Both the position numbers and the translations under genes were made by a program. Below are positions 1 through 15,419 of a stretch of DNA of 15,419 nt, in pieces. The DNA comes from an uncultured Hippea sp. (GTDB lineage Bacteria; Campylobacterota_A; Desulfurellia; JAADFJ01). The notes beneath the pieces were generated by a model. The model worked only from the letters and a program-made list of their open reading frames with translations. It made no database searches and was not told the DNA's origin. The DNA lies in contig CAJVZA010000049.1 of assembly GCA_913009315.1 (NCBI GenBank), positions 1 through 15,419 of the forward strand, in the 5' to 3' direction. Position 1 is the stretch's first letter. Every line of letters begins with the position of its first letter.

Positions 1-77
1 TTTTTTTTTTTCAAGCAGAAGACGGCATACGAGATATATCAGTGTGACTGGAGTTCAGACGTGTGCTCTTCCGATCT
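1..77. other. Illumina TruSeq adapter contamination plus poly-T
   Basis: This is not genomic sequence. Bases 12-35 match the Illumina P7 flow-cell primer (begins CAAGCAGAAGACGG). Bases 36-43 are an 8-base index (ATATCAGT, read as ACTGATAT on the other strand, which I recall as TruSeq index 25). Bases 44-77 match the index-read/adapter stem ending in GCTCTTCCGATCT. The 11 T's in front are the poly-A that Illumina reads produce after running off the end of the adapter. Read on the minus strand the order is insert, adapter, index, P7, poly-A, exactly what adapter read-through gives. The contig should be trimmed to start at base 78. Confidence 0.98.
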
Positions 78-240
78 TTCTTTAGTGTATCACAGGCATC
101 CTGTGCCTGTGTTCTCTTTTCTTCTGTTCCGCATTTGAGAAAAAGGTTAAGAAAATCTTCTCCGGACTTTCGACGCCTTATGCAGACAAACAGATTTATA
201 AATGCAAGTTACAAGTTAATAGAAAAAAGATTCTGACCGA
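78..240. other. Contig-edge stretch with no recognisable gene
   Basis: These 163 bases lie downstream of lspA and run into the adapter. One plus-strand frame is open from the edge to a TGA at 234-236 (52 codons) and would converge on lspA, with four bases between the two stops. One minus-strand frame is open from 208 to the edge (43 codons) but has no ATG, GTG or TTG start. Neither translation resembles a family I recognise, and both are short enough to be open by chance. An inverted repeat lies at 91-111. With only this fragment I cannot say whether it is intergenic or the end of a neighbouring gene. Confidence 0.5.
91..111. repeat. Perfect 8-bp inverted repeat (hairpin)
   Basis: CACAGGCA (91-98) and TGCCTGTG (104-111) are perfect inverted copies separated by five bases, so either strand could form an 8-bp hairpin. 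On the minus strand, the direction of the operon, it is followed by an A-rich stretch rather than a T run, so it is not a standard intrinsic terminator for lspA. On the plus strand it is followed by a pyrimidine-rich, T-rich stretch. Function unknown. Confidence 0.5.
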
Positions 241-261
241 TTAAGATTTTTCATGGGAATC
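222..261 (-). terminator. Weak candidate intrinsic terminator after lspA
   Basis: On the minus strand, GATTC (261-257) and TGA (253-251), near the end of lspA, can pair with TCA (236-234) and GAATC (233-229). This gives a bulged stem of about 8 bp with a 14-base loop, followed directly by six T's (228-223). The stem is AT-rich, has a three-base bulge and includes the last lspA codons, so stability would be low. It is the only stem-plus-T-run I see downstream of the operon's last gene and may mark its end. Confidence 0.25.
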
Positions 262-765
262 ATTCATAAGGTACATCTTTATAAAAAAGAGGACGGCACC
301 TGTTGTTATTGCAGAATCTGCAATATTAAATGCCGGCCAATAAAAACCTTCTATATGAAAATATAAAAAATCTGTTACCCTGCCCTGAAATATTCGCTGC
401 CACAGATTGCCTAAAGCGCCTGCAAGTATCAACGAAAATGCTATATAATAACGACTGTTTGCCTTGATAAACAGTTGGTATCCTACGATCAAAACAAAGG
501 CGATAGAAACGATTATCAGAAGATAGCGAAGCATCCATTCGGGCAAAAAAAACGATATGCCGAACGCTGCAGATGAATTTTCGATATGAACTATATCAAA
601 GAAATTTCTTATGACCGGTATTGGAGACGTTATCCCCAACACCAGTCGTTTTGTTACTAAATCAACTAATAAAACTGAAACTATTATTGCAGCAGAGACA
701 ATTTTCTGCCTTGAACTATTATCCGACCTCAAGCTCTTTGAAATAAATAAGAGCCATTTGAGCAT
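241..765 (-). CDS. lspA: Lipoprotein signal peptidase II (prolipoprotein signal peptidase)
   Basis: This is the inner-membrane aspartyl protease that cuts the signal peptide from diacylglyceryl-modified prolipoproteins just before the lipidated Cys. At 174 aa it has the usual size and four hydrophobic segments. The catalytic pair is visible: Asp132 in VTDF and Asp150 in FNIADSA, 18 residues apart, close to the spacing I recall for the Pseudomonas enzyme. The conserved HIENSSAAFG segment is at 60-69 and GALGN at 116-120. Odd: the Asp of the usual GNLxDR motif is Gln123 here (GNLWQR). The start is uncertain. The ATG at 765 has a close GGAG but overlaps rplQ by 47 bases. A TTG at 732 (163 aa) would overlap by 14 bases and give a more typical N-terminal length. 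It is the last gene of the operon; its placement after rplQ suggests cotranscription with secY and the ribosomal genes. Confidence 0.93.
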   Translation of the reverse strand: MLKWLLFISKSLRSDNSSRQKIVSAAIIVSVLLVDLVTKRLVLGITSPIPVIRNFFDIVHIENSSAAFGISFFLPEWMLRYLLIIVSIAFVLIVGYQLFIKANSRYYIAFSLILAGALGNLWQRIFQGRVTDFLYFHIEGFYWPAFNIADSAITTGAVLFFIKMYLMNDSHEKS

Positions 766-15291: not shown

Positions 15292-15294
15292 TCC

Positions 15295-15419
15295 CTACTT
15301 TAATATCTCACTGACAACACCTGCGCCCACTGTTCTTCCACCCTCTCTTATTGCAAAGCGTGTCTCTTTCTCAAGAGCAACGGGACTTATCAGTTCAGCT
15401 GTCATCTCTACATTGTCTC
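15295..15419 (-). CDS. tuf: Elongation factor Tu, C-terminal 40 residues (partial)
   Basis: EF-Tu delivers aminoacyl-tRNA to the ribosome. Only the 3' end is in the window. The 40 complete codons read [20 protein letters not shown] then [20 protein letters not shown], the end of domain 3 that is nearly invariant in bacteria, followed by TAG. The 5' part lies beyond base 15419. Its stop overlaps the rpsJ ribosome binding site, so tuf is almost certainly cotranscribed with the S10 block. This is consistent with a str-type cluster (rpsL, rpsG, fusA, tuf) upstream, which cannot be seen here. Confidence 0.97.

Follow-up and report, generated by a model that had tools for sequence, protein, structure and literature searches.

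An untrimmed Illumina TruSeq index 25 adapter at the start of a contig from an uncultured Hippea sp.

The closest described system is an Illumina library adapter, and Table 1 of PMC10000876, which lists oligos, gives ACTGATAT as TruSeq Adapter Index 25. Surface primers of the form T10-P7 and T10-P5 have been used in one study (PMC11123353), and this user study was all that our literature search returned on the T10 spacer, a statement by Illumina itself not being found. A second point of comparison is the family of REP/REPIN repeats, which consist of a short extragenic palindrome present in many copies per genome, with copies located beside a RAYT transposase gene. The window, meaning the whole 15,419-nucleotide stretch analyzed here, is an entire contig (C49), so the contig truly ends at base 1. 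Positions 1-77 are a sequencing adapter artefact of the ordinary kind in which the DNA of the organism is not involved. The adapter parts and the features just inside them are as follows.

1..1, + strand: outermost T, one position past the T10 spacer; either noise or run-off, although it could be templated
2..11, + strand: ten T, probably copied from the T10 spacer on the P7 oligo grafted to the flow-cell surface (229 adapter ends; PMC11123353)
12..35, + strand: Illumina P7 flow-cell sequence, exact match
36..43, + strand: index ATATCAGT (reverse complement ACTGATAT), TruSeq index 25, which is the 6-base ACTGAT followed by AT
44..77, + strand: TruSeq read-2/index stem, exact match, the final T of which pairs with the A-tail of the insert
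78..161, no strand assigned: truncated copy of a dispersed REP-like repeat (~84 bp), genuine genome, with a hairpin CACAGGCA-TCCTG-TGCCTGTG at 91-111
241..765, - strand: lspA (signal peptidase II; PF01252, E 1.4e-33), the first intact gene inward of the adapter and unaffected by it

Positions 12-77 were compared with CAAGCAGAAGACGGCATACGAGAT followed by eight bases and GTGACTGGAGTTCAGACGTGTGCTCTTCCGATCT, and there were 0 mismatches. All 58 fixed bases of the adapter are thus matched exactly, the index between them is a catalogued one, and the P7 site (24 bases), the index (8 bases) and the TruSeq stem (34 bases) occur in the correct order and spacing. Read on the reverse strand, the sequence runs from the insert through AGATCGGAAGAGCACACGTCTGAACTCCAGTCAC, ACTGATAT and ATCTCGTATGCCGTCTTCTGCTTG to poly-A, with the adapter facing outward at the contig end and the insert inward, and window positions 1-11 are all T. 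The adapter pattern was seen in none of 200 shuffled sequences, even with up to 3 mismatches permitted, and its chance expectation over the whole window is ~10^-31. No evidence against the adapter identity was found.

The same adapter recurs throughout the assembly, which comprises 96 contigs and 1.74 Mb and is 87.6% complete. Fourteen full P7-side adapters were found at the ends of 12 contigs, within ~180 bases of the end, and all 14 carry the index ACTGATAT while adjoining a different insert each time. One more P7 copy, truncated, lies at the end of contig C50, and 12 full P5-side adapters occupy further contig ends; within the assembly, none of the copies is internal. One index combined with different adjoining inserts indicates a single untrimmed library, unlike what a genomic element would give. 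That bases 1-77 are genomic after all, for example as a natural or engineered insertion, is therefore extremely improbable, since the sequence is common to several unrelated contig ends, is never internal and is missing from relatives. The adapter stem was absent from all 40 other genomes searched. A genome of the same genus (G001), whose DNA is ~94% identical over the window stretch, has ordinary genome in place of the adapter at the orthologous position of its contig C48, with AATCTCAGC-TTCTTCAGTGTATCACAGGC..., and the stretch there reads ...AATCTCAGC TTCTTCAGTGTATCACAGGCATCCTGCCTGTG... with the genome continuing. The original prediction had named an untrimmed P7/index/TruSeq adapter at positions 12-77 of the contig end, which, coordinates included, is borne out by the exact match, the recurrence with one index and the absence in relatives. 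It had also held that another assembly of the same organism showing bases 1-77 as genome would speak against an artefact, and the matching place in G001, which is without the adapter, favours the artefact.

This fault is not particular to the present genome, as it was found in more than 100 other public contigs, from MAGs and IMG/VR together, among the matches listed. In four isolate records (L055, L063, L069 and L071, from Klenkia terrae, Mycolicibacterium houstonense, Streptomyces specialis and Streptomyces mexicanus), large scaffolds carry adapter sequence deep in their interior, partly beside runs of N.

The T run was examined in 229 adapter ends drawn from this genome, other MAGs and IMG/VR. 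After the adapter, A makes up 93-100% of bases at positions 1-10 and then 75%, 67% and 66%, and the step from 93% at position 10 to 75% at position 11 occurs on both the P7 and the P5 sides. Illumina's grafted oligos carry T10, and such a tail on P5 and P7 accounts both for the ten-base step and for the cases in which P7 is joined to sequence other than adapter. A run of T10 or longer together with P7 was found joined to other sequence, without index or stem, inside contigs outside this assembly, namely of Paenibacillus sp. GM2 and four IMG/VR contigs (L119, L133, L141, L176 and L201), as though DNA had been fused directly to the flow-cell oligo. The T run could instead be purely a base-calling homopolymer produced after the end of the template, as four-colour instruments often call a missing signal A and enrichment for A (46-75%) persists beyond position 10. 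This is unlikely given that the step falls sharply at exactly ten positions on the P7 and P5 sides alike, and the five records in which T10+ adjoins P7 point to a physical T10-P7 oligo. Thus, T2-T11 are probably templated, having been copied from the T10 spacer of the flow-cell P7 oligo, and only T1 is run-off. The view that all 11 T are a run-off homopolymer therefore probably fails for T2-T11 and perhaps survives for T1. The advice on trimming is unchanged by this refinement.

Taken together, the best explanation, to which we assign a probability of about 99%, is untrimmed short-insert read-through via the index 25 adapter, P7 and the ten-T spacer, kept as the end of C49. A bacterial library fragment would end at base 78 on the + strand, and its insert would be shorter than the read. 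Read 1, lying on the - strand of the window, would cross the insert and continue into the TruSeq adapter of the P7 side, which carries index 25, then over the P7 site to the ten-T spacer of the oligo anchoring the cluster on the flow cell, and finally into noise. The reads would have gone without adapter trimming, and the assembler would have kept the adapter tail as the end of the contig. Directly observed are the adapter identity, the recurrence of one index at contig ends, the absence in relatives and the ten-base poly-A step, and from these we infer the short insert, the missing trimming and the surface-oligo spacer as the source of the ten T, together with coverage and read orientation.

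The index had been expected to identify the library, but it falls short of doing so. In a scan of the GTDB collection, from which the window's own records were excluded, at least 40 contigs with index ACTGATAT were among the matches listed, every one from MAGs of SRA run DRR093004, while contigs with index 27 among those matches came from DRR093003 and DRR093005. DRR093004 is a metagenome of a massive sulfide from the Southern Mariana Trough (PMC6946796). The P7-index-stem string with index ACTGATAT was found in none of the IMG/VR contigs, which likewise agrees with this run as the source. Against it, index 25 is a stock kit index, the GTDB-collection evidence comes only from the matches listed, and the P5 error profile differs. 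A T-to-G variant of the P5 read-through, GTAGCATT for GTATCATT, occurs in 4 of the 11 full ends here (36%; contig ends of C15, C16, C22 and C28 of G000), compared with 8 of 726 full ends in DRR093004, in eight MAGs (1.1%; Fisher p 1.3e-5). The excess may stem from another run, another oligo batch or a systematic error. Because the index is stock, the matches listed are incomplete and the variant rates differ, the index by itself is a lead and not proof; assigning the run by it is suggestive only, and DRR093004 as the source library is a possibility that we hold at somewhat below even odds. It is quite likely that the ten-base poly-A following adapters in public contigs, as a copied flow-cell spacer, can serve to recognize such ends, and that the index combined with the spread of adapter variants can test from which run a MAG came.

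Just inside the adapter, the sequence at 78-161 is a repeat with 13 long copies elsewhere in this genome, plus more partial ones. Its hairpin ATCACAGGCATCCTGCCTGTG (z = -3.66) has 38 sites in G000, with up to 2 mismatches, and 14 in G001, while no site was found in G002 or in three other genomes of the class; the repeat is limited to part of the genus. In copy number and palindromic form it agrees with REP/REPIN repeats, the 38 sites in G000 being many copies per genome. It differs from them in that copies beside a RAYT gene were not found, as neither repeat motif lies within the six loci around Y1_Tnp genes of G000, and it is for this reason named only REP-like. The copy in the window has an extra TG in the hairpin (CATCCTGTGCCTG, ~101-104) that is unique among the 27 copies read. 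With the adapter junction 26 bases away, this extra TG could be a sequencing error and needs read support. The caution that bases from 78 onward may have low support is plausible for fine detail, but these bases are genuine genome, given a flank at lspA that matches the relative at 94% and, at 78-161, a member of a repeat family found in the genus. An overlapping contig starting at base 78, proposed as a check, does not exist in this assembly, and the search revealed the dispersed repeat instead. The repeat was also considered as a general cause of adapter-bearing ends and rejected, as the hairpin repeat lies within 150 bases of only 1 of 27 such ends, that of the window; a second repeat motif was found at one other of the 27.

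No real gene is touched by the adapter. Three frames of at least 25 aa extend over base 77 (1-138, 61-138 and 63-236), and all are spurious, none being plausible. The gene neighborhood is ordinary: by the order read from the sequence, the alpha, spc and S10 ribosomal operons come after lspA. Neither an Rfam nor a tRNA scan of the window gave a match, a search with rpoA found no relative in viral contigs, and in plasmids only short rpoA pieces were found. At the right end, 15293-15419 stops in tuf and has exactly 127 bases in common with the end of C46 (16,237 bases), the other end of which also matches, at 99%. This right end is an ordinary repeat break, the assembly graph being interrupted at the duplicated tuf gene, and the 127-base overlap likely reflects assembly with k = 127.

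The importance of these observations is one of data hygiene only: the 77 bases should be trimmed, along with no fewer than 26 other adapter ends of the assembly (13 full P7, 12 P5 and 1 truncated P7). When set beside Illumina TruSeq index 25 read-through, the sequence, the index, the order of the parts and the position at a contig end are all identical here, and there is no difference of substance.
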